A DNA stretch of 64,000 bases, from contig OX359250.1 in the NCBI GenBank assembly GCA_947179485.1, forward strand, positions 22,384,887 through 22,448,886. Reading direction: 5' to 3'. Shown piece by piece: positions 3,302 to 45,559 of the stretch. A program made the position numbers and the translations under genes. The number at the start of each line of letters is the position of its first letter. Position 1 is the stretch's first letter. Source of the stretch: Allacma fusca. Taxonomy: Eukaryota; Arthropoda; Collembola; Symphypleona; Sminthuridae. The notes under the pieces were generated by a model. That model searched no databases and was not told where the DNA came from. It worked only from the letters and a program-made list of their open reading frames with translations.

Positions 3302-5410
3302 TCAATCTTCGCTCTCAGGTCTGGTTGGGATGAGAACCAACTTTGTAATGGGCCGCTTGTAGGAACCCTCTGAAGTTTTGACTGTTACTGTCCTTATAAC
3401 ATTGTCCTCAGTCGGATTCGGGTGAACTGCTGTCACTCGTGCCATCTTCCACTTCTGGGGAGGTAAATTCTCTTCACGTAGCACCACCAGGTCGCCAATT
3501 TTGATGCTGTCCTTTATGACCTTCCACTTGGTCCGTCGCTGCAACTGTTGAAGGTACTCTTCGTGCCACCTTTGCCAAAACCGTTGTTTAAGCTGAGTTT
3601 GACGCTGCCAGCGGGAAAGCGTGTTGACCTTCAGATGAGTCAAGTCATATTCCGGGATTGCTTTTAGAGACGATCCAATGAGGAAATGACCAGGGGTCAG
3701 AACCTCCAGATCTTCCGGATCGTTGGTTACTGGGCATAAAGGTCTCGAATTGAGACACGCTTCGATCTCCTTCAATAGTGTGTCGAACTCCTCTAAGTTC
3801 AACGGTGTGAGACCAACTACCCGCTGCAGGTGGTACTTCGTCGATTTGACCGCAGCTTCCCACAGGCCACCCATGTGTGGGGCTGCTGGAGGATTGAGGA
3901 CCCACTCAACACCGTCGTTGGCAAGAGATCGGATAATTTCACTCTGGACCTTTTCGGTTTGTACAAACCCCATGAACTCCGTCAACTCTCGTTTGGCTCC
4001 AATGAAGTTAGAGCCGTTGTCGCTTTGAATTACCTTAGGGAGACCTCGCCTAGACACGAATCGCTTCAAAGCTGCCAAAAAGGATTCCGTTGACAGAGTT
4101 GTCACTAGCTCCAAATGGATGTCCTTTGTACAGAAGCACACAAAAACGGCAATATATGCCTTGTGTGTCCTGGGGTTTCTACCGATGGAGTCACGGATGA
4201 CCACAGGGCCGGCAAAATCTACACCTGTGTGTGTAAATGGCCTTGATAGTGTCACTCGAGGAGAAGGTAGATCTGCCATGAGTTGCTGTGGAGTTACTGC
4301 ACTCTGTACGACACAACGCTTGCAGTTCCTGATTATGGCTCTCACCAGGCTTCGTCCGCGGACTATCCAGAACTGTCTTCGTATCTGGGCCAGGGTTAGG
4401 CCTATCCCTCCATGATGTTGACTCACATGACACCAACGAGTAATCAGGATGGTTAAATGACATCTTGGAAGTAATATGGGGTGCTTACAGTCGTAGTTGA
4501 CCTCAGAATTACGGATTCTTCCGCCCACCCTGACCAGGTCGTGGCTATCCAGGAATGGGTTGAGTGAAAGTAGCATGGACTTTTTACTCAAAGGAATCTT
4601 CCGACGTATGGCTGATTTCTCTTTCCCTAAGAAAGTTTCCTGCAATGCCCACACGAGTCTATTGGATGCATGGTTTAGTTCTATTGGGGTTAAATGGGGA
4701 TTGCTGAAGGTTTCTTGTTTTGTGTAGAATCTCCACAGTCGAATCAACCAGCTCGTATGTCGTAGCAATTTCGTCCACTCTGAGTACTGCTCAATTCGCT
4801 GCTGAATGGATGGAAACTTGATCAAGTCCGTTAGCATAACGGTTGTTCTCGGGGTTGGTTCTGTTGCTAGAGAATGTGGTGGAAATGCTGTGGCAGGGGT
4901 GTAGACGTCTCCTGAGGGTACCTCAAAATGAGGCTCCACAGCGTCGGGAAATGATTTTGTAGTAATTGATGTGGGCATGGGATTGATCTCGGGTCTGAGT
5001 AGATACTTGGGTCCATTGAACCATATGGGACTGGAGGAAAGCTCGTTTGCTGACACTCCTCTTGAGGGAAGATCAGCAGGGTTAACAGCTCCAGGAATGT
5101 GGAACCAATTCTCAGGACCAATTTTGCGTTGGATTTTGGCCACGCGATTTCGCTCAAAAGTTTTCAAACGGTGAGGTTCTCCTTTTATCCATCCGAGTAC
5201 TATGGTTGAATCTGTCCAACCTCGAACGAACTCTATTGGAATGGGAAGGGACTGGCTGACCGTTTCTAATAATGTTGCTGCTGTCACTGCGCCGCAGAGT
5301 TCCAACCGTGGAAGTGAAAGACACTTGAGTGGGGCAACTCTTGCTTTACTTGCAACCAGTCGAACTTGCACTCCATGGGACGACATTGACCGGAGGTACA
5401 CAGCTGCTCC
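3302..5410 (-). pseudogene. BEL/Pao pol, RNase H remainder, integrase and C-terminal domain
   Basis: About 700 codons remain open after the internal TAG at 5411-5413. In order, this part has the rest of RNase H (roughly residues 1-120), an H2C2 zinc domain (HHGGIGLT ... CKRC, about 325-365), an integrase core, and a C-terminal DUF5641-like region (RWHEEYLQQLQRRTKW, about 590-690). The integrase acidic triad can be seen in place: Asp in GVDFAGPV, Asp in QSDNGSNF and Glu in GGLWEAAVK. Integrase inserts reverse-transcribed DNA into the host genome. The frame matches the RT part, so only the TAG separates the two. No methionine start of its own exists, and this part would be translated only by readthrough. 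Confidence 0.9.
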
Positions 5411-6930
5411 CTATGCTTTCTCGGATGCGTCAGAGTAAACGTGGAGTTGGTAGGAATGGGAATCATCCATGGAAATTCTTCGTGGTATCCGTACTTTTTC
5501 GATCGATTGCATGTCAGCCTGATAATTTGACCACTCATCAAGAATCGACTTTGGTGGTATGGAATCCCAACCTGTATTGCATTTCCATAAAGCTTGAATA
5601 ATTATTTTTGCTCTAATTGTAATCGGAGATAAATAGCCTAGAGGATCAAACACCCTTGCTACTTCTGACAAAATTGCTCGTTTGGTCCATTTGGAAGTGA
5701 TAGGCTTCTGGACTGAAAATCGAAACTCGTCACAGCTGGGGTTCCATATGAGACCAAGTGCCTTGGTAGTGTCCTCATTGTCCAGACAAAGTGGAAGTTT
5801 TGTCTCACGTAGCTCTGCGGGAAGAGAAGAAAGAACTGATGGCTCGGATGATGACCACTTTCTTAACTGAAATTGTCCCTTGCTCATGAGATCCAGTAAT
5901 TCCTGTTGTAGCTGCAGGGCACCTGCAACGCTGTCGGCCCCGGTGAGGCAATCATCGAAATAGAAGTCTCTACGAAGAACTTTTGCAGCTAAAGGATACT
6001 CATCCATGTGGTCCTCCGCCAGCTCATGCAATGTCCGTATTGCTTGGAATGGGGCTGATGATGTCCCAAATGTTACTTTTCGTAGACGGTACTCTCGAAT
6101 TTTCTCCGTTGACTGATTTCTCCAGAGCAGCCGTTGGTAGTTGTAGTCAGAAGGATGTATCCAAATGTGTAGATACATTTGCTTCACATCTGCCGTTAAT
6201 GGGACCTTCCAATAACGCCATCGAATGAGGATCGATACAAGGTTGTCTTGGATTACCGGACCCACCAAGAGGTTTTGGTTCAAAGACTGACCTGTTGTAG
6301 TTCGGGCACTGGCGTCAAAGACAATTCTGACCTTTGTAGTGGTACTGCTTTCCTTGACCACAGCATGATGTGGTAGGTAGTACGCGGCTTGATCAGGGAC
6401 GTTGAGCTCCTGGGCTGGTACCAACTCCATGTGACCTGCTGTTATGAGCGCCGCCATGGCTTTGTGGTATTCTTGTTTTAAAGAGGAATTTCGGGAAAGT
6501 CGGGCTTCTGTGTTGTGGAATCGCCGGAGGGCTTGAAATTTGGAGTTACCCAGTGGGACTGCATTTGATTTGAAAGGCGATCGTACTTGGTACGATCCAT
6601 CAGCGAGTCTTGTTGTAGTTGCGGTGTAGAGGGATTCACATTCTTGTTCTTGAGTTGTGAAAACGTTTTCTGTGGTGTGGTAGTCTTCAATCTCCCAAAA
6701 CCTTTGGAGGTCAACTTCCAACGTCGAGACGGTCAAGTTGAAACAATTAGTCTTGGGTTTCAAAACTGCCGTCACTCCGCCTGCAACAAGCCAACCGAAT
6801 GCTGACTCTTGCGCTACGGGATGGGATGGTCCTCCTTTGATTAGTCCGGACTGGATATGCTTGTAGTAAATGTCAGTGGCAAGGAGTAAATCCACTTTTC
6901 GGGGAATGTAGAATTGGGGATCTGCTAATC
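5411..6930 (-). pseudogene. BEL/Pao pol, reverse transcriptase part
   Basis: Open from just after the gag stop (about 6925) to a TAG at 5411-5413. It starts in the tail of the protease region (ADPQFYIP, then DLLLATDIYY) and continues through a full RT with KVRIVFDASA, VTFGTSSAPF and the catalytic FYFDDCLTG box, then the Peptidase_A17-type connection and the first RNase H strand (YSDASEKA). The polymerase motif is YFDD rather than the commoner YVDD. The core aspartic protease with its DTG/DSG active site is missing: only about ten codons separate the second CCHC knuckle from the conserved DLL(L)ATDIY block, where relatives have some two hundred. The TAG ends the frame within RNase H. Confidence 0.9.
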
Positions 6931-7500
6931 CTTATGTTTGGCCTTACACTCTTTACATACTCCTGGGGATGGACAATTTCTCCAAAAGTGTCCAGTCTTG
7001 AGGCAATTGGTACACAATTTAGCTTTCTCCACGAATTTCTTTCTTTCCGAATCTGGGGTCTCTCTTAATTTGGGGCATTTAAAATTGTAATGATCTGACT
7101 TACAGAATGAGCAGACTTGCCTGGTTGTTGTGTACGGTTTTGAAAACTGCTGCTGGCTATCTGACTTCCGGAAATCGTTTTTGGCTTCGCTTGTGGAATG
7201 CTGAACGAGTGGTACTTCCTCTTGTGACGACGCCAAGTCAACGATTTCTTTCTCCAGAAATGAAACCACTGTGGTCCAGGACGGTAGTTCCTTGTCAGTG
7301 AGTTTCTGGTGAAAGCGAAGTCGTGCAGTAGGGTCTAACTTTCTCATAACGATGGGAATAATTAGCACGTTAATTTGGTCAGTTGGTTGACCCAACAAAT
7401 GAATAGCCTTCATGGTGTTATCTGTTGTGCTTAATAAATCTTGGATTTGAAATGAATTACGAACCTTAACCTCTGGTTGATCTACGATGTAACTTGTACA
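6925..7500 (-). pseudogene. BEL/Pao gag, C-terminal part with two CCHC zinc knuckles
   Basis: Continuation of gag in a different frame from its N-terminal part. It carries two zinc knuckles, CSFCKSDHYNFKCP and CTNCLKTGHFWRNCP, which in family members bind genomic RNA. It ends at a stop right after a third cysteine pair (CKECKAKHKD), which is normally the lead-in to the protease. The frame break lies around 7470-7500, just after the motif KRELLY. A single small insertion or deletion would explain it. Confidence 0.85.
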
Positions 7501-8155
7501 GCAGTTCACGCTTGTGCTCGTATTTTGTCTCTAAGGTTGTCCAGGCGGGTGCGTAATTCCCGTCGTCGATTGGTACCGACTGGAGGATGCTAGCTGCTTG
7601 ACCTTCAAGGGATGCTAGGAGGTACTGGAGTTTTTCGGCTCCCGATAAATCAGTCCTCATATGCACTGCTTTCTTGAAACGGTCCCGAAAGTGGAGCCAG
7701 TCTTCGTAATTTCCGTTGAACTTAGGAAGCTTTAGCTCTGGTAACTTTACCTTTTGAATTGGCAGGGCAGGGTTCACAGAAGGGCTGTTGGCTTGGGCTG
7801 AAGCTTGAGCATTGGCTTGGTTGATAATGTCTGCTTCCCGTAATTTTCTCGTTTCCTCCTTTTCTTTGATGGTAATTCTGCGTAGACAGTCAATCAAAAC
7901 TTCGTCCATTTCATCAAATACGTCCTGGTACTTGTATTGGTCATCCATTTGAGCTTGAATATCTGCGTCCGCTGACAAAGTTGCAAGAATGTTTTGATGG
8001 TTCGCTTCCATCTTAGTCCAGATTTCAGTTATTTTTGCTTTATAATGGTCGTACCTGAATCTGTCGATTGCGTTAGGGTCGTAGGTGTCAAACCTATTCT
8101 TGAATTTGGTTAAGCTGCCTTTGAGCCCGGCCCGTTCTGCTTTTAAAGTTGACAT
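7466..8155 (-). pseudogene. BEL/Pao gag, N-terminal part
   Basis: The best start is the ATG at 8155 (MSTLKAERAGLKGSLTKF); the frame is open upstream to 8209 without another ATG. The protein has a charged helical N-terminus, a Q/A/N-rich linker and then the DUF1759 capsid-like region (LPKFNGNYEDWLHFRDRF ... EKLQYLLASLEGQA), which is typical of BEL/Pao Gag. It runs into a stop at 7466 after a frameshift, while the homologous continuation is found in the next frame. Confidence 0.9.
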
Positions 8156-8236
8156 TGCTGTTGTCGTGTCTTCGAGTCTCTCTCTCACAGGTAATTTCAG
8201 AAAACCCACAAACTATTCACTGGTTAAATCACAAAA

Positions 8237-8695: not shown

Positions 8696-9595
8696 CAAGA
8701 TGAAGTTATTTTGTGTTACAAATCTTATAGTACTTAAATTTATAGACTTGAGCTGGTCTTGGGTCTTGAGTCAGTCTTCAGTCCCGAGAGTTTTATTACC
8801 GTCATAAAACTGTCAATCTGCGGTGTCAGCGAAGTCCAATGGGTTGCATCCTCGGTCAAGTTTCCTCTCTCTTGAAACTCTTGCTTGAAGTGTGTTATCC
8901 CTTACTTAGCATTTTCAGTTCCTCTTTTTACTTCATGACATTCACACATGATAAATACTTTATACATGACAAAATCATTCATGATACAAATCATTCTTAC
9001 AAGTCCATTTCCTTAATTCCTAAATGATTTACCAATAATTTCAACAATATCCACACTTGGCTGAGTTCTTATTTGGTTGAAATCAGTGGGATAGTTTTGG
9101 AGAAAAAATTCTTGAAATTTCTAAATTTCAATTACATCACGGTTATTTCAAGCACTACTGGACCGATTTCAATGAAATTTTTCACCTACATACTACATAC
9201 CAAGGACTCCAGTAATGAGCTGCAAATGTACGATGAGTGCGAGTTTAAATGAAGTACAAAATACAGTAAACAGTAGTTGTAATGTTGGCGTTTATTTATT
9301 ATTTTTACACGTGTGTTAAGGGTTCAGTGTGAGGGGAATTTGCGAACAAATTTTGTTGTGTGGAATTTCTACGATGATTGCATACATAAACACGGAATCA
9401 TGTGTTTATGATGTGAATATATGGTTTTGCTGAAATCAATTTCGACAGTCTGACCTCTACTATAACATACAGCAATTAGTGAATGAATGATTTATTGTGT
9501 TTTTAAGACATTGTCTACAACACAGGTAGATATAACATAGGTTTCGTTTTACATTAAAGGAAGTTAATTATCACGGCACCTCGTAGTGCCTTCAT
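8696..9595. other. No gene seen; old repeat-like sequence
   Basis: No coding potential above background. The stretch around 9150-9240 (CTGGACCGATTTCAATGAAA) resembles wording common in old arthropod transposons, but no termini were found. Confidence 0.4.
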
Positions 9596-10066
9596 TATAT
9601 AGTAAACAATGTTATAGTTTATAATCTCCTCCGCCGTACATTTAAATGGAAACCTACATTTACTCCTGGTATCAAAATAAAGAATTTTTTAAATACTGTG
9701 AAAGACCGAGAAGAATTAAACATGGGAGGAATATACCAAATAAATTGTGGTTCATGCAATTCTATATATATTGGAGAAACTGGAAGACCTCTAGAAGTCA
9801 GAATTAATGAACACAAAATACATGTAGAAAAAGATAATTACAAGAAATCTGCTGTAGCTAACCATATTCATAAAACGAAATTGAACCATCGAATTGAATG
9901 GAAAGATTCTAAGTTTATCCTGAAAGAACCTGCTCCATTTTTAAGAGAAGTTAAAGAAGGATTACTAATTCAGCAAAGCAAACATCCCTTGATGAACGTC
10001 AATAAGGGTTACATATTAAGTGATGCTTGGAAACCAATTATTCCAAAATTGAATATAATTCTTTAG
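9596..10066 (+). pseudogene. Penelope-like element, C-terminal GIY-YIG endonuclease fragment
   Basis: Open frame ending at 10066 with a GIY-YIG nuclease. GGIYQINCGSCNSIYIGETG gives both the GIY and YIG strands, followed by the conserved arginine in GRPLEVRINEHK and a later helix glutamate (REVKEG). A CXXC pair sits between GIY and YIG, as in Penelope enzymes. The stretch before GIY (RRTFKWKPTFTPGIK..FLNTVKDREEL) matches the usual RT-to-endonuclease linker. The RT itself is absent, so this is a 5'-truncated retroelement copy. The frame is intact over about 155 codons. Confidence 0.85.
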
Positions 10067-10439: not shown

Positions 10440-10447
10440 GTGTGAAC
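10440..10447. repeat. 8-bp target duplication of hAT-like element 1 (left)
   Basis: GTGTGAAC, exactly repeated at 11637-11644 on the other side of the element. Confidence 0.85.
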
Positions 10448-10454
10448 CAGTGGT

Positions 10455-10700
10455 CGTCACGGGAACGGGTAAAACCCGGGTACATGGGAACGGGAACGAG
10501 TACAGGAACGGGTACGGGAACAAATATTTTGTTCCCAGCCAGTTTGGGTACGGGAACGGGAACACACTCAATTGGACCCAATCACCGGGAACAGGAAGAG
10601 GAGTGGGAACAGGAACAGATATTTTCAATTTGTTCCCGTTCCCATCGGGAACGGGTACGGTCTACGCATGATCCCGTTCCCATACCTATTGTTCCCGGGC
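10455..10700 (+). repeat. GGGAAC/GGGTAC hexamer array, left arm
   Basis: More than twenty GGGAAC, GGGTAC or reverse-complement GTTCCC hexamers occur in about 245 bases. They are interspersed rather than strictly tandem. Likely a subterminal transposase-binding cluster. Confidence 0.8.
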
Positions 10701-11384
10701 TCGAGTGTGTACTTTTACCATCTTCTAGGAACACACTCAAAATTGATCTTGGAAGACTTAATAGTATTTATGTAAACAATTCAATTTGCATATTCCATTG
10801 TATTCTTTTGTTCCTGCAATTTCTACACACATATCCTTGCCTTAAAGATAATGATGTTAGAACTCCTTTTTCAGTACAACTGAGGTATTTTCTAGAATAA
10901 TTCTATAAATTTAAAATAATAAACATTGAAATAATTATTATTAGTTTATTCTTTTTTTTTTGTAAGTTTTACTCTTAATGTTATTTCAAATAAGACTAAC
11001 AAAGGGAAACTAATCCGTGCTGGCATATATTTTTCAGATATTGTGTGTATGCAGAAAATTATCTATGGGCCAACAATGATCTTAAATATTAAGTACCGTT
11101 TTGAAATCCTCGTCAACATTCATTTTTATTGTTGGAGAAGCAACATCACTGCTCCATTCGTTGTTGCATCCTTTCCCAGTATGGCATTTTAAAGTGTTGA
11201 TATTCGTTCTACTCGGTATATAATCTCTGAAGATTTAAACAATTAGTTATTACGCTATTGTTTGCTATAGAGATGCGTTTAACCGCCCTGCACATTGTAT
11301 GTTTATAACTGCAAAACGAATGGTTTGGTAGTTAAAAAAATTTTAATGATAATTTTTACCACAACTAAGTACAACACGACCTGG

Positions 11385-11620
11385 ACCCGGGAACGGGACC
11401 GGCAACACTAGCTGTGGGAACGGGTACGGGTCCAGAACATTTTAAATTTCTGGGTACGGGAACAGGAACAGGTCCGGGAACGAATTTTTATTAAATTCAT
11501 GGGAACGTGTACCTAAAATACTGTTCCCACTATCACGGGAACGGGTCCGGGTACGGGAACACTTAAGGGGAGTACCCATTCAGTGGGAACAGGAACGGGA
11601 ACGGGAACAAACTTTTTGTA
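11385..11620 (+). repeat. GGGAAC/GGGTAC hexamer array, right arm
   Basis: About twenty GGGAAC/GGGTAC/GGTCC-type hexamers, nearly all on the plus strand as in the left arm. Confidence 0.8.
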
Positions 11621-11644
11621 CCCATGACGACCAATGGTGTGAAC

Positions 11645-23920: not shown

Positions 23921-23928
23921 GCTCTTAT
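23921..23928. repeat. 8-bp target duplication of hAT-like element 3 (left)
   Basis: GCTCTTAT, repeated exactly at 25732-25739. Confidence 0.9.
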
Positions 23929-24151
23929 CAGTGCTCGGCACGAGTACGAAAAATCGGTACCCGTACCCGTATCCGTACCCGAAGTGCGGGTATTGCAATA
24001 TGTGTTATCTATTATTAATCTTTATTAAAGTGTCGCAAGGAGTCAATATTAAAATACTGGTTTTCACCCTTGACACTGTCACTTCATCCAGATACATACA
24101 AGGTTACATTCATAAAACAGGCATAAGTCGTAAGGAGTTTAAACAAAATTA

Positions 24152-24793
24152 TTAAGTACATACATCATCTCTTTCAACCAAAATATGCTTAATTAGGAGT
24201 TTGTCAAATACTCCATATGCACAGTCACGCATTCGACACAGGGTAGGGAGATCATTCCATGCTTTGACACACACATACATAATATTCTTTTGAATAATAG
24301 CCGATTTAGCAACACTATGATAAAGTAAAATAGTACCAGGGCATCGCAACCTACCTGATGTTAGTTTTGACAAAAGCATCCCATTAACGTAGTTGATTTT
24401 ACTCCCATAGTGTACAAGTTGATACATAAACTTGCATCTATAGTATCTGACACGTTCAGATATAGACAGTATATTATAGTGTTCATATAGTTGAGACAGA
24501 GCTAAAACATTTTTGTCATTACGATTACGAGAATGCAATCTCAAAAGGAAAGTATCTAATTTACACTGTAGTCGATCAATTCGCGACTTGCAAGCATTGC
24601 TCCAAATGAGTATACAATAATCTATGTGACTGAGAACCAGGGAATTGATCAATAAACGTTTAGCACTGTCATTTAAGTAACGCTTGACCCTAATCAAAGA
24701 ACCCATAGATTTTGACAATTTTTTAAGAATATATTCAACATGATCTTTGTAGCTAAATTTGTCGTCCAATAACACACCCAAATATTTAAACAC
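24152..24793 (-). pseudogene. LINE (non-LTR) reverse transcriptase C-terminal fragment
   Basis: 213 open codons. The start is the conserved FKYLGVLLDDKFSYKDHV motif that follows the palm of jockey/CR1-type reverse transcriptases, continuing through LLINSLVLSHIDYCILIW and a C-terminal region with WNDLPTLCRMR. The YxDD catalytic core and everything 5' of it are absent. The fragment lies inside hAT-like element 3, between two hexamer arrays, so it either inserted into the element or was captured by it. The frame is intact, so the insertion is not very old. Confidence 0.85.
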
Positions 24794-24819
24794 CCATACT
24801 CTATCTACCTATACTACCT

Positions 24820-25010
24820 ATACTCATATCTATACCCTTACCCATATCCGAGTATTCAGGGAAACATTTTTCATACCCGTACCCGAAATGAAATCTCAAA
24901 CCATGTACCTGTACCCCGCATTGTATCCGTACCCGGAAAATACTCGAAAATTGTACCCATACGCGGGTATCTAAGTGTCGTACCCGTAGTCGTACTTGGG
25001 TACTTTATAT
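24820..25010 (+). repeat. TACCCG hexamer array, middle block
   Basis: Repeated TACCCG, TATCCG and TACTCG hexamers immediately after the LINE fragment. They are probably a continuation of the left arm pushed apart by the insert. Confidence 0.75.
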
Positions 25011-25494
25011 CCAGATTTCTCTAAATGTAGTACATAGTACGTTATGTGTAATTATGTATGACAGCTTAGTGTGTAATTTTGACTAGCTAGAGCGGTATTT
25101 GATGGTGTATATTTTCATTGAAGAGTAGAAAAACTAGAAGCGTTTTTGATTATCTAAAAATTAAATTAACTTACATACTTGTAGATTCATCAAAATATTA
25201 CCAGCCGTACAAAATTTATCTGAATCCTATTCTCCACTTCTATTTTGTTATTATTCCTCGTTTGTGTTTATTTATCTATAATTCCTAAAACCTGTTTCCC
25301 TAAAAGCATATATTTTAGCTACACAGTCTTAAATACATTTACTGTATGTTTTAATGTTAAAGGAGTATTAACACTGGGCTATGTGTATTCAGAAACACTA
25401 AAAATACGGGCAGAAGTTTCCAACGTACGGCATGATGGTATAAAATTCATCAAAATGTCTCTATTCTCAACGTATCCAAATACTTGGGTACAAT

Positions 25495-25725
25495 GGTCGT
25501 GGGTACGAGTAAATGACCTCATTATACCCGTACCCGGTGGGTATACACCCATTTCGAAATCCGTGTACCCGTACCCATACCTGTATCCGTACTTGAAATT
25601 TTTAGCCGACCAAAGTGTACCCGGGTAGTACCCGGAATTGATCGGGTACACAAATTTGATACCCAGGTAGTACCCATACCCGTAACCTTACCCATTTACC
25701 CGAGTATTACCCATACCCGTGCCGA
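25495..25725 (+). repeat. TACCCG hexamer array, right arm
   Basis: About twenty TACCCG-type hexamers up to the right terminus. Confidence 0.8.
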
Positions 25726-25739
25726 GCACTGGCTCTTAT

Positions 25740-28362: not shown

Positions 28363-30327
28363 TTAATACCGACAGCATTCGAATAATTGACCCTTCTGAA
28401 GAATTTTATGAGTTCGAGTACAAAATCTCCTAGAGTCGGAGGCTATATTCATAGCATAAGGGCCTTTCGTCATCACTGTCAAACATTTTAATGAGGGATT
28501 TAAATACTGAAAATCCATGATAGTTAATGGAATGGTATTTGGCTCAGCGTGCTCTACGGAAATCCTCAATGTAAGGTTTTCAATTTTTTCGAATCCAATG
28601 GTAGTTGATAAACTTAAGTGATACTGGTGTCCCTCGGATTTATTGAGGAAAATCCCGAACTGAGCGTTCTTCAAGTGCTTCAACTGTTTCGACATCCATA
28701 TGAACTCTGGCACGGGGAGGTCCAAACTTAATGTGAAATCCGTTAGCCCAGGGGCCATGGACACTAGTGTCTTGGTCTGATTTAAAACATGCGCAAATTC
28801 CTGCTTCCACCTGATATCCGCTTTGGTAAGCTTGGGCAGCCGGATCCCACTGAATACGTCGCAATGAACGCAGGACACTCCCTGATTGATCCGGAGACTC
28901 TTGATCTTGGAATTCTTTTTCAAAATGGCCCGGACACTATCTTGATTACTAACGGAGAAGTAGGGACGATCAAAGGATAGTAACTGGAGTTTGGGCATTT
29001 TCCAGGATGACACCATCTCGTACACTGGGTTACATTCATTTTGAACTTGAAGATTAATTTGAAGCCAGTTCAGTTGTTCCCAGACAGTATCAGTCGCATT
29101 TGATGGTAAATTATTTTGTGTCTTCTCCACCGACCCGTCGCAAAGTTTGTGAATTTGTAAGGTCAAACTTTGAATTCTCAAAAACGTCGTAGTAACATCT
29201 TGAACAAATCGCTTTGATTGGGACGATGGTAGCCGGACATAAACGATGTCATTTGCATTAAAGTCTTCTGGGAAATAGTGGTTCAAGTTTCCGTCGTCCG
29301 CTCCACGGAATACAGCTGCATTGCATGAATCAGTAAATTTTTGGTACTCCTCGTTGGCTGACAAAACGCAGTAGACATAGGATTCGCTATCATTATTGGA
29401 ACCAGAGGGTGTTATCAGTCCATTGACATCGTTTAATTGCGTCGTTGGGAATTCTTTGCTCCCACCGGTAGACACGGTCCAGTCGTTCACAGCCATCTGA
29501 TGGTCTTCGCTACTGACTCCCTCACTGTCCCCGAACAATTGAGGGAGGACGTAAATCGTACTCACGGCACAAGAATACACTGCTGCAACGGTGAACAGCA
29601 TGAGGAAGTAAATTATTCTCTTCCTTCGAAGTATCCTCAAAATTCAAAATATACCGGCATTAATATAAATCAATTTTCTAGAATTTTTGCCCGGATATAA
29701 ATCTACATGCCCAGGAGTTTCGTCTTAATTTAATTTTATATAAATAATAGAAACCAGCTAGTTGCCAATCATAATTCCCTCATATTTTAAAACATGCCCG
29801 TTAGCAAACGGGAAATGACATATGTACTAAACCGCGGGTGTTAATTTTTGTTTGGTACTGCTCAAGTGAATAAATGTGGGAAAGTTTAACAGTAGCTAGT
29901 GTTAGTTAAAATGTTATAAATAAATTGTTAAATATTACCATTGTTGGTGCATCTTCAGATCACTTGATGACAGCTCGCTGATAGAAAGCATCGGCACGTA
30001 AACATCCGTGTGTGTGATGTCCCAAATGGCTTCTCTAATGAAAATAAATAATTGATTAAAGATGTACCGCTGTGATACCCAATGGTAATATAATTCCACG
30101 GGCTTGCATATCTTTCATATAGGGGCAAAATGATCTAGCTGGTAGATCATTTTGCCTCTTCAGGATAAATGTATTCTGAGAGATCCCCTTTAATTATTTA
30201 TTTTTGTTGAGCGATGTTTTTTTAACTTTCTATGTAGATCTTTATTAGTTTCCCACAATATTCAATATTCTTTCAGAAATAAAATAATTATTAGTAAATC
30301 TTACTTTGAACTTTCGTAGTTTTCCAT
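28363..30327 (-). CDS. Membrane-anchored family protein A, three exons, 463 aa
   Basis: Exons 30327-30305, 30034-29939 and 29635-28363 (23 + 96 + 1,273 bases), joined in phases 2 and 2. Residues 1-40 are a short hydrophilic tail (MENYESSK then EAIWDITHTDVY...). One membrane segment follows basic RRKR (IIYFLMLFTVAAVYSCAV, about 45-65), so the large remainder is probably outside the cell or luminal (type II). The outer domain has regularly spaced leucines (LQLLSFDRP, IKSLRINQGV, LTDFTLSLDL, IENLTLRISV), like a degenerate leucine-rich repeat, with several cysteines and N-glycosylation sequons. Family not recognised. The N-terminal half is homologous to the gene at 39362-40827. The last 681 bases are nearly identical to the gene at 42042-43696. 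The third-exon acceptor (TTTTGAG|G) is weak; the open frame and paralogue support it. Confidence 0.75.
30124..30156. repeat. Perfect 14-bp inverted repeat in intron 1 of gene A
   Basis: GGCAAAATGATCTA and its exact reverse complement are separated by five bases. The first gene's intron 1 (30304-30035) contains it; the matching intron of gene B does not show it. It could form a hairpin in the pre-mRNA, or be the core of a very short foldback element. Confidence 0.6.
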
Positions 30328-31807: not shown

Positions 31808-32039
31808 TATATTGCATACAAATATTCGGAAATTGTGCGAACTTACATAAAAAACTGCGTGTATTTACGCATGAATGTAGGATATGTGCCCAGCTTTGGT
31901 CCATACTGGATCAATGTTTCATGTTGTGAAATCATTAGCAAAAATTAGGCTGATGTCATCTGCAATTCTCTAACAAGAGCAAGGTCAATCATTTAGGTCC
32001 CGATTAGGGTAAGAATCAGACTCAGGAAATTACAGGGCG

Positions 32040-32239
32040 NNNNNNNNNNNNNNNNNNNNNNNNNNNNNNNNNNNNNNNNNNNNNNNNNNNNNNNNNNNNN
32101 NNNNNNNNNNNNNNNNNNNNNNNNNNNNNNNNNNNNNNNNNNNNNNNNNNNNNNNNNNNNNNNNNNNNNNNNNNNNNNNNNNNNNNNNNNNNNNNNNNNN
32201 NNNNNNNNNNNNNNNNNNNNNNNNNNNNNNNNNNNNNNN
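32040..32239. other. Assembly gap (200 N)
   Basis: A run of exactly 200 N bases. The true length and content are unknown. Reading frames reported across it are meaningless. Confidence 1.
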
Positions 32240-33160
32240 GGCATATCAATATAAAATAATAGTAGAGAAATTATGAAAGGGTTCTCACCAACAGATGTGG
32301 GATTATGCCGAAAACAGCTGCTATGATATAGGAGGCAGGCAATTGTGAAGAGAGATGAGCGTACGGGAGAACATGTGAGGTGGAATAGAGAAAAGAAGTA
32401 TAGGGTTATGTGGAGGCCGGCTGGGAGAATAGAGAGGCTGAGGAAAAGGTAGCTCCGCCCACGCGGCAGAGTTGTAGTTTGAATTGTACTGTGTGAGTGT
32501 GTGGGAGCAGGAGCAATTCATGTAAGTTTTTTTTCATTTCATAATTTTAGTTTACTTCATAATTATTAGGTTAGGGTTTATATAATTCAGTACAAGTGGT
32601 ATATTTGTAACAATTCTCCCCTTTTAATGGGAGTAGGACTACTGTATATGACCATTAAACACATCAGACTTGACTAACACAATATTTATAAGCAGATATT
32701 AATAAGGAACGATATAACTTTCATAGGGAACAATCAGGTTTCTAAAGTCATTTTACGAGAACACAATAACTCAGTACTGTAAAGAACACTCACATCGAAC
32801 ACATCTTATTCGTTATGAACACAATAAATAATGGTTTTTGAAGAGAACAATCACAATAAATATCTCAGACTCGAAGATCACAATATATCAGTATGAGGAA
32901 AATAGTGGTTATTGAGAGAACAATCTTAATAAATATCTCAATCTCGAGATCACAATTAATCTGTATGAGAGCAATTAATATTACCGTAGGGAACAATCAC
33001 CGGTTACATAGTGATATCCTATGTATCGTTTGAGACTAGGTAAATAAAAATATAATTGTCAAAACTTGTACTACTACCACAAGTGTGGGTCCTCACTATT
33101 ATACGGATTATTGTCTCTAATTATTATTAATATCCGAGCTATGACGACTTATGTAAGGGT
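32240..33160. other. No gene seen; left side of the gypsy element
   Basis: Contains several loosely repeated GAGAACAATC..AATAAATATCTC steps (about 32690-32990) with a period near 70 bases. This may be the U3 part of the 5' LTR. The left LTR boundary was not found. Confidence 0.4.
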
Positions 33161-33379: not shown

Positions 33380-33853
33380 TAGAGTTATTTTTCTGTGCTG
33401 TCTCTATCTCACAGATAGATTAGTTAGGTTAGATTTATTTAGCTACTTTTATTGAAGTAGGATCTAGATTAAGAGTTAGGTTAATTACTTCCAATTAATC
33501 TAGGATTAGGTTTAAGTAATTAGGCTAGCTACTTTCACGAGTAGGTGTATTTTAGTCCACTCTCTTAGCACGGCCACCTAGCGAATATTATCTCAAGTAG
33601 TCTTCGTTAGGGCTATAGATTGTGGGGCCATCTCTTGCTTGCAGGGAGAGATAGGATTTTGCCCACAACTCTCACGAGCTCCCTGGGCAGTGGATCTTGT
33701 GTAGTTGCTCCCTCACGGCTGCACTACGGTATAGTAGTCATTCCCTCACGGTTTTTGATTGCCGAGTTAGTTAAGTTAGTCTGATTGGCTCTCCTTCACA
33801 GGTTGTAGCCTAGCAGTTTACTTGTTGTTGTAGAATTTTCCTACGTAGTCAGT

Positions 33854-35137
33854 ATGTCAGGACGTGGTAGGAGAAATGCCCAGCCTGAAGCTGAAGGGGC
33901 AAGCGGCCAGGAAGACGGTCCCCAAATTACACTTGAGTCCATTACTGAATCTATTATGCAGCAGTTTATGAACGCGGACATGCATGCTCCGTTTTGGACA
34001 CTATTGTCCGATAGACTTAATGCGGAAAATCAATTACGCATAGAGCAGCTCCGACAAGAATTAGCCAGAGCTACAGCTGCTTCGGCAGCCGCTTCTAATG
34101 CTGCTAATGCTGCTGCCGCTGCAGCCAATCGGGGACAAGCCCATGCTGCAGGAGCTCATGCAGCTCAACCGCAGATAGACCGAGTGTCTCCTTTACTACG
34201 CACATGCGATATTAAGATCCCCAAATACAGTGGAGCTTCAGATAGAAAGACTCCCTTTGATTATATCGAGGAGCTTGAGCGCTACCAAATTGCAGTCGGA
34301 TATTCTGATGCCGACATGTTGGCTAAAGTTCTGCCACTTTCTCTCGACGGTCCTGCCTATCGCTGGCTTAGATTTTTAGGACCTTTTGCTACACTCGACG
34401 CGTTTAAAGTAGCGCTCAGGCGAGAGTTTCAAGCTGTGGGCTATTCCGTAGAATTGCGGAAAGAATTAGACGAGCGCTACCAGGGCCCCGATGAGCCCCT
34501 CACTTCTTTTATTCAGGCTATTAACTGCTACTATATGCGGCTTGAACCTAATGCTAGTGACGATGTTAAGGTAGCCAAGATTATTTCTCTCATGCACCCC
34601 GAATACAGATTCTACGTCATGAATCGCACTTTCCGCACCATGCGAGAACTCGCCAGCGCTGCACACGTTATTCAGGAGCAAATTAAGCACACTCGCGACT
34701 ATAAGCTCCCGCGGGAGTCCGAGCAATCTTTAGAGCCGTCTTGTGCTTGGGTTCCTGCCCGCTCTCTTAAATCTTCGGGGATAGAGTCACATTTGACTAC
34801 ACCAGGTCAACCCACTGAGGCTGACCTCAAGTTGAAGTTCCCGGCTATTGATCCGTTCCGCTATTTCCATAACTCAGGAACTAGCCGTGCCTCTAGGGAT
34901 AGATCTCGAGAAAGACCCCGAGAGAACTCTGGAAATACGGCCGGGAATCGCTTTCGGTCAAGCTCCCGTGAGAGCACCCATCGTTCTCCTAGCCCTGGGC
35001 CACGAGGCCGACCCCAGCCGAGCCGTAGTCCTTCCCCTAAACGGCCGGTAGACATGTCCACCATCACATGCTACAAATGCAAGGAGACTGGCCACTACAA
35101 ATCGAACTGTCCCTCCCTTAAGGGAAACGGCCAGTAG
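33854..35137 (+). CDS. Ty3/gypsy Gag, 427 aa
   Basis: Intact frame from ATG 33854. It has a glycine/arginine-rich start, a helical N-terminal stretch with an alanine/asparagine-rich linker (about residues 75-110), a capsid-type domain (FDYIEELERYQIA ... AYRWLRFLGPF ... SFIQAINCYYMRL, about 120-290), an arginine/serine-rich linker, and one CCHC zinc knuckle CYKCKETGHYKSNCP near the C-terminus. In relatives Gag forms the particle and packages element RNA. The frame overlaps pol by a few codons, and pol lies one base back (-1). Absence of stops in 427 codons means little decay. Confidence 0.9.
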   Translation: MSGRGRRNAQPEAEGASGQEDGPQITLESITESIMQQFMNADMHAPFWTLLSDRLNAENQLRIEQLRQELARATAASAAASNAANAAAAAANRGQAHAAGAHAAQPQIDRVSPLLRTCDIKIPKYSGASDRKTPFDYIEELERYQIAVGYSDADMLAKVLPLSLDGPAYRWLRFLGPFATLDAFKVALRREFQAVGYSVELRKELDERYQGPDEPLTSFIQAINCYYMRLEPNASDDVKVAKIISLMHPEYRFYVMNRTFRTMRELASAAHVIQEQIKHTRDYKLPRESEQSLEPSCAWVPARSLKSSGIESHLTTPGQPTEADLKLKFPAIDPFRYFHNSGTSRASRDRSRERPRENSGNTAGNRFRSSSRESTHRSPSPGPRGRPQPSRSPSPKRPVDMSTITCYKCKETGHYKSNCPSLKGNGQ

Positions 35138-36039
35138 CCGAGACTCTGTACCTTTCAGACTCTCGGCCTATTGAATTACTCCTCTCACGACCGGATAATA
35201 TTCCGCTTGTAAATATTGCCTTCTTCGCCACAGCCTACTCTGGGCTCTTAGATACAGGGAGCACCTGTAGTTTTATAAGTAATAAAGTTTATTCTAATGT
35301 TAAGTCTCGTTCTCTTGTTCGGTTGAATGATACCCCCATTATTCTTGCGCAAGGCTCTTGCTCTGCAATTGGGGAAGTTCTACTTAGATTTACGTTTTAT
35401 GGCAAAGCATGCTGCCGCAAATTTCTAATTATTCCCAGTTTACCTAGAGATGTTATTCTTGGTAGAGATTTCATTTCTTCACTTAAGATAGTTATAGATG
35501 TAGAAAGCAACAATTGGCACTTTAGAGACTTCCACGATGTACAATGGGCGTTTGAGAATTTCCCACTCCGGAATGAAATATGTATGTTCACGGATGTCCC
35601 ACTAGACGTAGATAGGCTCTCTGGGTCAGAGTTCTTTTCGACCCCCGATAGAGTCCGTTGTAGATCCCTTCTATTGAAATACCGACACGTTTTCTCCGCC
35701 CGCCCGGGCTTATGTACTCTATATGAGCATGAGATTGACACCGGTAATGCTAAACCTATCTATCAGAAGCCCCGCTTCATGAACGAGGCTAAAAAGACAA
35801 TTCTAACCAACACTGTTACCGAGTGGTTGGACCTAGGCTTAATTAAACCATGCACTGGGCCCTGGGCTTTCAATACAGTTATACGCCCCAAATCTGACGG
35901 TACTTTCCATCAGCCTAGTCCTATAGCGATTACTCTCCTAGAGGTAATTTTTATGGGTACATACTTGGGCATCTACGACTACCTACCTGATTTCTTCTTT
36001 CATATTATTGCCTTAAATATTAGCTTTTGCTATATTTAA
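35122..36039 (+). pseudogene. Ty3/gypsy pol fragment: protease and start of RT
   Basis: The open frame begins after a stop at 35119, overlaps the end of gag in the -1 frame, and carries the retropepsin active site SGLLDTGSTCSF followed by the flap/helix VILGRDF. The RT entry motifs are HEIDTGNAKPIYQKPR and WAFNTVIRPKSDGT. Homology stops there (about 35915). The following 40 codons (ITLLEVIFMGTYLG...) are hydrophobic and unrelated, ending at 36039. The catalytic YxDD, RNase H and integrase are missing, so this is a deletion derivative. Confidence 0.8.
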
Positions 36040-39361: not shown

Positions 39362-40827
39362 TTATAAGGTAGATACTTTCCTTTGGTTCTTTTGAATGAT
39401 GGTCAAATTATGATGCAAATCAGCCACACTACAGTCCCCCAAGAAGCAATCGATGAATTGTACGGAGAGCAGAGTTTCGTTGTGTTTTTGAAGGAAGCCC
39501 CTGAGACTCTCACATACAGAAGGTAGAATATCGGCTTGATTAATGGAGATCGTCTCAATTAGTGGTAAATTCCACTTGTTCAGCAACCAGGAGGTTAAGG
39601 GACAGAGTGTCGCATTTACGATTTCCAGCGTCTCCAACTCCGGTAAGTTAAGTTCCGGTAGATTATTTCGATCCTTCTCTTCCGATCCGTAGCAAATTTT
39701 GTCAATGCTAACGGTCAACTTTTGAATATTTGGGAAAGTCGTGGTAATATCTTGAACAAATTTTTCCGATAGAGGCGAGGTTACCCGGACGTAGACGATG
39801 TCATTTACGTGGAAGCCTTCGGGGATGTAGTGGGTCAGATTTCCGTCGTCCGTTCCGCGGAATATAACTGCATTGCACGAATCCCTAAATTTTTGGTACT
39901 CCTCTTGGGCTGATAAAACACAGTAGACATAAGCTTCGTTATCATTATTTTGGCTAGAGAGCGCTACCAGTGCGTCGACATCTTCAAATTGCAATGTTGG
40001 GAATCCTTTACTCCCTTCAGGAGACATTTCGTCCTCCAGCAATACACTATTGCTTATTTCTTGAATTGAATTCAAGTTCCAATCCTTGACAAGCAATGGA
40101 GCCAACTGATCTTCGTCACTGTCCCCGTACATTTGAGGGAGGACATATATCATGCTCACGGCACATAAAAATACTGCAGCAATGGTAAGCATCGTGAGAA
40201 AGTAAATTATCCTCTTCCTTTGAATTATCCTAAAAAGTCAAAATTTACAAGCATTAATAAAAATTAATTTTCTAGAATTTTTGAACGAAAAAATTATAAG
40301 TTTTCAGTAACTCAATCATATGCTAAAATGTTTGGGTTTGCAAGTGGGAAATGGCACATGTATTAAATACTAAGTTTTAATTTTTTTATACTATTTATGT
40401 GAGTGAAAATTTGATCAGTAGCTTGTAAGTTTCCCTGTAAAAATGTACATAATGCATTAATAATAATAAATCATTATTATTACCATTGCTCGTTCAATTT
40501 CAGATCACTTGCTGACAGCTCGCTGATAGAAAGCATCGGCATGTAAACATCCGTGTGTGTGATGTCCCAGGCGGTTTCTCTAATTAAAACAAAACATGGT
40601 TAAATATTACGATATCCAATGGCACTGATTCCAAGGACTTGGAAATATTCCTGAAGGTCTGAATGATCCCCATTATGTTGAACGGTGTTACTTACTAATT
40701 TTTGCGGTCTTTATTAATCACTCATTTATTATTAGTATCTCAGTAAAAAATAAGAAATAATCATTAGAAAATCTTACTTCGACGCTGCGTATCGTAGTGC
40801 TGAATTAACGGATTCAGAGTTTTCCAT
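39362..40827 (-). CDS. Membrane-anchored family protein B, three exons, 337 aa
   Basis: Exons 40827-40778, 40579-40484 and 40229-39362 (50 + 96 + 868 bases, sum divisible by three), phases 2 and 2 as in gene A. The start is MENSESVNSALRYAASK, followed by the 96-base exon ETAWDITHTDVYMPMLSISE.... A membrane segment lies after QRKRIIYFLTM (LTIAAVFLCAVSMIYV, about 60-78). The outer part shares with A the block YVYCVLSAQEEYQKFRDSC ... FRGTDDGNLTHYIPEGF. It stops about 120 residues earlier than A: LLSVQFIDCFLGDCSVADLH then a short tail. Type II topology is likely; function unknown. Confidence 0.75.
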
Positions 40828-42041: not shown

Positions 42042-43696
42042 TTATTTCCGACAGCATTTCAATAATTGACCCTTCTGAAGAATTTTATGAGTTCGAGTAC
42101 AAAATCTCCTAGAGTCGGAGGCTATATTCATAGCATAAGGGCCTTTCGTCATCACTGTCAAACATTTTAATGAGGGATTTAAATACTGAAAATCCATGAT
42201 AGTTAATGGAATGGTATTTGGCTCAGCGTGCTCTACGGAAATCCTCAATGTAAGGTTTTCAATTTTTTCGAATCCAATGGTAGTTGATAAACTTAAGTGA
42301 TACTGGTGTCCCTCGGATTTATTGAGGAAAATCCCGAACTGAGCGTTCTTCAAGTGCTTCAACTGTTTCGACATCCATATGAACTCTGGCACGGGGAGGT
42401 CCAAACTTAATGTGAAATCCGTTAGCCCAGGGGCCATGGACACTAGTGTCTTGGTTTGATTTAAAACATGCGCAAATTCCTGCTTCCACCTGATATCCGC
42501 TTTGGTAAGCTTGGGCAGCCGGATCCCACTGAATACGTCACAATGAACGCAGGACACTCCCTGATTGATCCGGAGACTCTTGATCTTGGAATTCTTTTTT
42601 AAAATGGCCCGGACACTATCTTGATTACTAACGGAGAAGTAGGGGCGGTCAAAGGATAGTAACTGGAGTTTTGGCATTTTCCAGGATGACACCATCTCAT
42701 ACACTGGGTTACATTCATTTTGAACTTGAAACTCAATTTGAAGCCAGTTGAGTTTTCCCCAGAGAGTACCAAGCGCCTTTGATGGTAAATCTTTTTCCGG
42801 ACAGCGTCCACGGGGATGTACCACAGCTGTTCTGGCTTTCCCTACCAAACCTTTGAGCCCAGTATGGAACTGGAAATTTGTAACCCTAGCGGAATAGTAC
42901 GAACATGTGTCTTCGCAAAGTATCCTCCGAACTAGATCACCACGTTTTGTTACAGGGTTTGCAAAGGTCTCAGCTTTGATACTACACTGGGTCGTTTTGG
43001 CTGGAATACTGTCAAATTTAAATTCTTCGTAAGAGAACGTTCCGATAGAACATTTTTTTCGAGGTGGTTTAATTGTCGAAACTTTCACAGTAGAAAGTGT
43101 GCTAGATGATTCCTGTACTGTCTGTAACACCGTGGTAGGGCTACTATTATTAAGTCCAGGATAAAGGGATTCCGTTTCATAGACCAAGGTCGTTGTAATT
43201 TCCTTCTCAGTTATGACACTGTCATCTGTTCCTCTTGACAGGGCAGTTTCGCTATCTGTGGACGACGCTTGTATTATCCAGGAACTGTTCAAATCTTGAC
43301 TGGTCGGAGTTGGAAGCACTGTATATAGAAATTGGGAGGATATTTTTAATTAAAACAAAACTCTGTACTATCGGGAGTCAGACGCCGGGTGAAGACTGTG
43401 CTTGAAAGCTTTTGCAGAAAATACAAATAACGTTATAATACATAAAGAGCCATGTGTAAACCCAAACATGGGATTCCTCAAATAATTATGTTTTTCCTCG
43501 ACCATTCACATTAGAAAATTTGTACATTTTTAGATTATCTCATATAAAGGAAATTATGATAATTTATGCACATACCATTTGAACTTGTTTTCCCCAAGAG
43601 TAGAAATCCCACACAGGTTAATATTATTATCATGGTGATGATGCCCAACGTACAAATCACAAGTTTTAATCTTCCAAGATTTCTTAGGCAGCTCAT
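42042..43696 (-). CDS. Membrane-anchored family protein C, two exons, 465 aa
   Basis: Exons 43696-43576 and 43318-42042 (121 + 1,277 bases), phase 1. The start used is MSCLRNLGRLKLV; the frame is open slightly upstream without another ATG. A strong membrane segment (ICTLGIITMIIILTCVGFLL, residues 13-32) follows a basic tail, again type II. Then come a Ser/Thr-rich stalk of about 80 residues, a cysteine-containing segment (KKCSIGTFSYEEF, QCSIKAE, ILCEDTCSYY) not found in A or B, and finally about 240 residues nearly identical to the C-terminus of A. An upstream exon could exist, since A and B have additional N-terminal exons. Confidence 0.7.
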
Positions 43697-45330: not shown

Positions 45331-45371
45331 GAAAGTTTGATTTTTTACTGAAATTAAAAATTTTACAAACA

Positions 45372-45552
45372 TTACTACTAATTATTTTAGAAAATTTAAA
45401 GGCTTTCAAATTACTAGTAATTATTTTAGAAAATTTAAAGGCTTTCAAATTACTACTGATTATTTTAGAAAATTTAAAGGCTTTCAAATTACTACTGATT
45501 ATTTTAGAAAATTTAAAGGCTTTCAAATTACTAGTAATTATTTTAGAATATT
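45372..45552 (+). repeat. 39-bp tandem repeat, about 4.5 copies
   Basis: A unit of the form ATTACTAGTAATTATTTTAG followed by AAAATTTAAAGGCTTTCAA. Copies differ mainly at ACTAGTAAT versus ACTACTGAT. The period is divisible by three, so the minus strand reads LKAFKFSKIISSN repeatedly, an ORF without other support. Confidence 0.9.
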
Positions 45553-45559
45553 TTTTAAA

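Follow-up and report, generated by a model that had tools for sequence, protein, structure and literature searches.

A 5'-truncated LINE probably nested in a MITE-like hAT element of Allacma fusca, with subterminal hexamers biased to one strand

Between two arms that look like the ends of a hAT transposon, the Allacma fusca DNA analysed here (the window, a stretch of 64,000 nucleotides in all) holds a fragment of a LINE with an open reading frame, which raises the question of whether a LINE landed in the element or whether the element now carries LINE sequence as cargo. The preliminary description of the locus offered both readings. For comparison with the rest of the genome we searched assembly GCA_947179485.1 (392,743,791 bases, 91 contigs). 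On our reading, the features of the locus, in window coordinates, are as follows.

23921-23928: left target-site duplication (TSD) GCTCTTAT, identical to 25732-25739, read from the sequence
23929-23942, plus strand: left terminal inverted repeat CAGTGCTCGGCACG, a 14-mer with 1145 exact occurrences genome-wide
23929-24012, plus strand: left hAT arm, up to the LINE break; other hAT copies match at query 5-92
24006-24012: LINE TSD TATCTAT, 7 bp, the copy adjoining the 3' tail, read from the sequence
24013-24802, minus strand: 5'-truncated LINE with (ATT)n 3' tail, 98.6-99.6% identical to copies L002-L005
24152-24808, minus strand: LINE open reading frame, C-terminal portion of the reverse transcriptase (RT) protein (218 codons between stops)
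24803-24826: 24-bp filler at the LINE 5' junction, outside the hAT and LINE matches
24827-24833: second copy of the LINE TSD TATCTAT, read from the sequence
24827-25731, plus strand: remainder of the hAT element including the right arm; 39 other scored places at 87-92% identity
25718-25731, minus strand: right terminal inverted repeat, 14 bp
25732-25739: right TSD GCTCTTAT, 8 bp, read from the sequence

The outer boundaries are as first described: an exact 8-bp duplication on both sides and 14-base termini that form perfect inverted repeats, which still match at 94% when extended to 18 bp. A CAGNG-type terminal inverted repeat is a criterion of the hAT superfamily, and the perfect 14-bp tip CAGTGCTCGGCACG starts with CAGTG. 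The locus is very probably a MITE-like hAT element, non-autonomous and about 0.98 kb long, interrupted by a 5'-truncated LINE that inserted later.

The LINE fragment is about 790 bp long and lies antisense to the window. Its first bases are possibly common to the tail and the target duplication, which is only 7 bp long and has an edge blurred by the (ATT)n tail, and the filler at its 5' junction resembles the target by eye (TACCTATAC vs TATCTATAC). Since the match to other LINE copies stops at 24802, the first codons of the open frame lie in this filler. The similarity among copies L002-L005 continues for another 1.5 kb upstream, as far as each compared sequence reaches, and the window copy is therefore 5'-truncated; another copy, L008, is 95.5% identical to the window LINE. 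The features that identify it as a LINE are the 5' truncation, the simple 3' tail, its own TSD and the RT domain of a longer relative.

A genome search for copies lacking the LINE had been proposed, and it found them. Among the best 40 of 2105 candidates, which were scored against the window element, one was the window itself, 29 were hAT copies without the LINE and 10 were LINE copies without the hAT element. All 29 other hAT matches start at query 907, the right side of the LINE break, and in 28 of them the two arms abut directly at the break with an overlap of 6-7 bases, which in the window is TATCTAT; in the 29th (C8:39254304) the match to the left arm ends at query 52. The exact LINE/hAT junctions, left and right, each occur once in the genome. 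With up to two mismatches allowed, the left junction yields four further places, fewer than the 15 obtained with the reversed control, and the right junction yields no further place in the genome. The LINE shares 98.6-99.6% identity with its relatives, the hAT copies 87-92% with the window element, which makes the LINE the younger part; since a near-identical LINE sits in a diverged hAT copy, the hAT element came first and the LINE later. By these comparisons the locus is a routine case of one mobile element inside another, and nothing in it suggests that the LINE is cargo. Of the two readings offered at the outset, the landing of a LINE in the element is thus borne out by the LINE's own TSD, by its much closer relatives elsewhere and by the 29 of 29 other hAT copies that lack it, while carriage as cargo was rejected, the LINE being absent from those 29 scored copies and both junctions being unique in the genome.

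In the order of events that we favour, the hAT element would have arrived by cut-and-paste transposition, duplicating GCTCTTAT; target-primed reverse transcription would then have put the LINE into the left arm as an antisense, 5'-truncated fragment with an (ATT)n tail, a 7-bp TSD and a short, target-like filler. An improbable variant of this is that the LINE entered a hAT copy elsewhere and that the loaded element then moved here, in which case the LINE would have been passive cargo at least once. The perfect outer 8-bp TSD fits the arrival of a loaded element equally well, and family members with inserts of several kb do keep perfect TSDs (the 11.3-kb L022/L023 and the 3.3-kb L068 and L070). 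On the other hand, each LINE/hAT junction occurs once in the genome and no donor copy remains; the LINE, at 98.6-99.6% identity to its relatives, has had little time for another move; and the window's subfamily has no copy more than 92% identical among the 39 others scored.

Other copies with these termini do exist, contrary to a doubt raised beforehand: the 14-mer tip occurs 576 times in forward and 569 times in reverse orientation genome-wide, compared with 2+0 for a reversed-pattern control. For a sample of complete elements we took neighbouring head-to-tail pairs less than 20 kb apart among the first 100 of the 1145 tips, all on contig C1, which gave 37 tip pairs: L049-L084, 36 pairs each spanning less than 4 kb, and L022/L023, which spans 11.3 kb. 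The flanking 8 bp were identical in 33 of the 37; the remaining four have one mismatch (L051, L056, L075) or four (L071), and none of the 1260 comparisons between non-partner octamers among the 36 pairs gave identity. We analysed 34 intact duplications (32 of the 36 pairs, the 11.3-kb pair and the window copy), excluding from this and from the hexamer counts below a locus without an exact left tip (L087). They follow the pattern nTnnnnAn, the target preference of the Ac family within hAT: of the 34, 23 carry T as their second base (p 2e-5) and 21 carry A as their seventh (p 5e-4). Buster elements prefer an nnnTAnnn target, and a central TA is found in 0 of the 34 duplications.

Element size falls between 0.83 and 1.35 kb in 27 of 38 cases, with clusters at 0.83-0.97 kb and at about 1.3 kb, and members longer than about 1.3 kb have additional sequence inside. 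The 11.3-kb pair (L022/L090/L023, C1:2496566-2507839) is an exact-tip pair of 11,274 bp with identical 8-bp flanks CCTACAAT, and its interior holds protein-coding pieces, one frame of which resembles a mariner-type transposase by eye. Short, non-coding, present in high copy number and with common ends, these elements make up a large non-autonomous, MITE-like hAT family of several hundred copies, for which we found no published description in the openly available literature that we searched. The window's own type is old, the 39 other places (best of 1949 candidates) being 87-92% identical to the window. With an arm of the 1.3-kb type, the best 40 of 1115 candidates were 99-100% identical, and in the unselected C1 set 12 elements aligned to L049 over at least 1274 bases at 94-98% identity, while L056 and L069, in near full-length alignments, were 88% and 83% identical to it. 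By these values the 1.3-kb type is younger than the window type.

We assign the family to hAT on its tips, its TSDs and a relative, since no transposase with the exact tips was found. A hAT domain does lie about 1 kb from a tip of the TACCCG family, at a place represented by loci L040 and L089, where we read 6 kb and found the following element.

C1:9470900-9476900: decayed hAT element of 3954 bp (L089), tips CAGTGGTGGGCACC / CAGTGATGGGCACG, TSD GTTAGGAT

This element contains a Dimer_Tnp_hAT domain (4e-19); its transposase is broken and split over several frames, the N-terminal piece matches no Pfam domain, and embedded in the element is a short segment that bears an imperfect tip of the TACCCG family. 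As an autonomous partner of the family it was rejected, the transposase belonging to a different hAT element with the tips and TSD just given. No autonomous member with the same tips was present in the 37 tip pairs, which represent 74 of the 1145 tips, and no hAT transposase was found inside the copies, whether five pieces of the L089 transposase were used as tblastn queries or frames of at least 75 codons at 12 loci were inspected by eye. Among the longer tip pairs L062, L068, L070, L071 and L022/L090/L023 there was no match to the L089 transposase except at chance level in L090, two frames of which were compared with Pfam without a match, and none of their frames was recognised as hAT. Of 860 candidate hAT-domain matches 150 were scored; seven of these lie on C1 below 21 Mb, none of them closer than 29 kb to any of the 100 exact tips listed, and among ten hAT loci (L039-L048) a similar tip was seen only at L040, within the sequence compared.

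The lack of a transposase within the copies examined could be taken to mean that the tips mark some other superfamily that also makes 8-bp duplications, or that the flanks agree by chance, a reading to which we give very little weight given that 0 of 1260 non-partner flank pairs agree, that the duplications have the nTnnnnAn pattern and that the related 3954-bp L089 element contains a Dimer_Tnp_hAT domain at 4e-19. The earlier designation as hAT-like can thus be kept, on the grounds of the 33 of 37 identical 8-bp flanks, the nTnnnnAn pattern, the CAGTG tips, the hexamer arms and a relative with a hAT dimerisation domain. These elements are most likely mobilised in trans by a hAT transposase. 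Its DNA-binding domain may read the subterminal words, here presumably the hexamers, as is described for Ac and Hermes (PMC3260210, PMC10368747), and the enzyme would cut at CAGTG and join with an 8-bp stagger.

The LINE portion had been introduced as an intact-frame, C-terminal RT fragment. The frame is indeed open, over 218 codons, but the RT label is right only loosely, because very little of the RT domain remains. No Pfam domain was found in the window fragment, which corresponds roughly to the last 215 residues of the protein of the longer copy L002, where a 717-residue open frame has an RVT_1 domain (5e-31) at residues 272-511. The notion that the hAT family carries cargo derived from a LINE, functional or amplified, might be backed by the 218-codon open frame, but it is the least credible of all and can be set aside: the same frame is open in L002 and is therefore expected to be open in any young LINE copy, almost the whole RT domain is gone, the LINE is absent from 29 of 29 other scored hAT copies and the junctions are unique. 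As a truncated insertion, the fragment needs no function.

The hexamer arms, too, are present as reported. Leaving out the LINE, TACCCG occurs 15 times on the plus and 4 times on the minus strand: 3 and 1 times in the left arm (23929-24012), and 12 and 3 times in the remainder with the right arm (24827-25731). In 2000 first-order Markov simulations of the arms alone, the mean was 0.79 (maximum 5) on the plus strand and 0.34 (maximum 4) on the minus strand. The plus-strand count greatly exceeds what chance would give, and the hexamers favour one orientation without keeping to it strictly. Subterminal TACCCG repeats are found in both arms of all 38 elements scored (the 36 C1 pairs, the window copy and L088), and in 38 of 38 the majority strand is the same in both arms, though the elements, as family members, are related and so not 38 independent cases; for the window copy, the left 200 bases used in this count include LINE sequence. 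The majority strand holds on average 74% of the hexamers (range 65-80%), a bias with exceptions. The density and same-strand orientation of the hexamers had been singled out as unusual. The density does exceed chance, but the orientation is no more than a bias, and the idea that this bias is an oddity of the window copy was rejected, all 38 scored elements showing it.

A second hAT-like element lies in the window at 10440-11644, with TSD GTGTGAAC on both sides and tips CAGTGGTCGTCACG / CATTGGTCGTCATG. Within its limits (10448-11636) each end region holds the word CGGGAA seven times, on one strand, and TTCCCG occurs twice in all. In the L089 element, TAGGC occurs six times on the plus strand and never on the minus strand in the left 250 bases, three times and once in the right 250 bases, and nowhere between, which lends weak support to polarity because the word was chosen after looking.

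Several known systems share parts of this picture. Maize Ds, of the Ac/Ds system, has the same 8-bp duplication and short inverted tips, many hexamer copies near both ends and several size classes of non-coding elements (PMC3260210). In Ac/Ds, many AAACGG hexamers lie within about 200 bp of either end and are bound by the Ac transposase, and the non-coding Ds elements are moved in trans; the TACCCG family, unlike Ac/Ds, has a different tip and a different hexamer (PMC3260210). The target pattern nTnnnnAn is stated for Hermes and hobo (PMC10368747, PMC8961557), and 8-bp TSDs of this form are shared with Hermes of the housefly, which differs from the TACCCG family in being autonomous and in having the repeat AAGT/AAGC rather than a hexamer (PMC10368747). 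The Hermes subterminal repeats are bound by BED domains; in the left end (STR2-7) they run antisense, in the right end (STR1-5) sense, and they would appear to lie on one strand if both ends are depicted starting from the tip, as the figure legend suggests (PMC10368747). When the internal left-end binding sites of Hermes are mutated, about 70% of activity is left and they are largely dispensable in cells (PMC10368747), so the hexamer arrays need not be essential in the TACCCG family either. Like mar and other hAT MITEs, our elements are short, non-coding and multi-copy and have no transposase of their own (PMC3517528, PMC8961557), but unlike mar, a member of the Buster family (PMC8961557), they target nTnnnnAn, and none of the 34 duplications has TA at its centre. 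The nest itself has a counterpart in a Drosophila mojavensis BuT2 copy: there, too, a hAT element whose tips are intact and whose 8-bp duplications are identical holds another mobile element, in that case a probable mariner, a DNA transposon, and here a LINE fragment (PMC3942097).

The nest is routine, and the polarity of the arrays is a modest side question. One could speculate, and we do so with considerable doubt, that these hAT ends follow a general rule, the subterminal words (TACCCG, CGGGAA, TAGGC) running in one direction along the element in both arms and so keeping the left and right ends biochemically distinct. If this were true, array orientation would be an end-identity signal that prevents the transposase from pairing two like ends. 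One-strand polarity is probably not a new trait, since the Hermes repeats appear to be arranged likewise, though it is not stated as a rule in the literature consulted. With its many hAT ends, some of them young, the family is a useful natural resource in which one could see how many subterminal repeats, which word and which orientation persist under selection for mobility.

The window contains further mobile elements and frames. On the minus strand at 3302-8212 are frames of a Pao/BEL-type retrotransposon, with Peptidase_A17 (1e-26) in 5411-6931, and on the plus strand at 33809-36039 is a retroelement-like frame with a zf-CCHC zinc knuckle (3.3e-06), after which a further long frame follows. 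A plus-strand frame at 9587-10066 has a GIY-YIG domain (3.1e-05) and is possibly the endonuclease of a Penelope-like element. A minus-strand frame at 17934-18749 matches DUF4781 (2.3e-14), and the translation of a frame at 31993-32517 has a long run of unknown residues, which reflects bases that were unread or withheld. Three minus-strand frames, at 28363-29643, 39362-40237 and 42042-43349, look like locally duplicated genes: the first and third share long identical blocks, the second resembles the start of the first, and the first, the one frame of the three that was compared with Pfam, had no match there. Two tandem arrays were also seen, at 1911-2233 (18-bp unit, 17.9 copies, 95% matches) and at 45371-45553 (39-bp unit, 4.7 copies, 95% matches).
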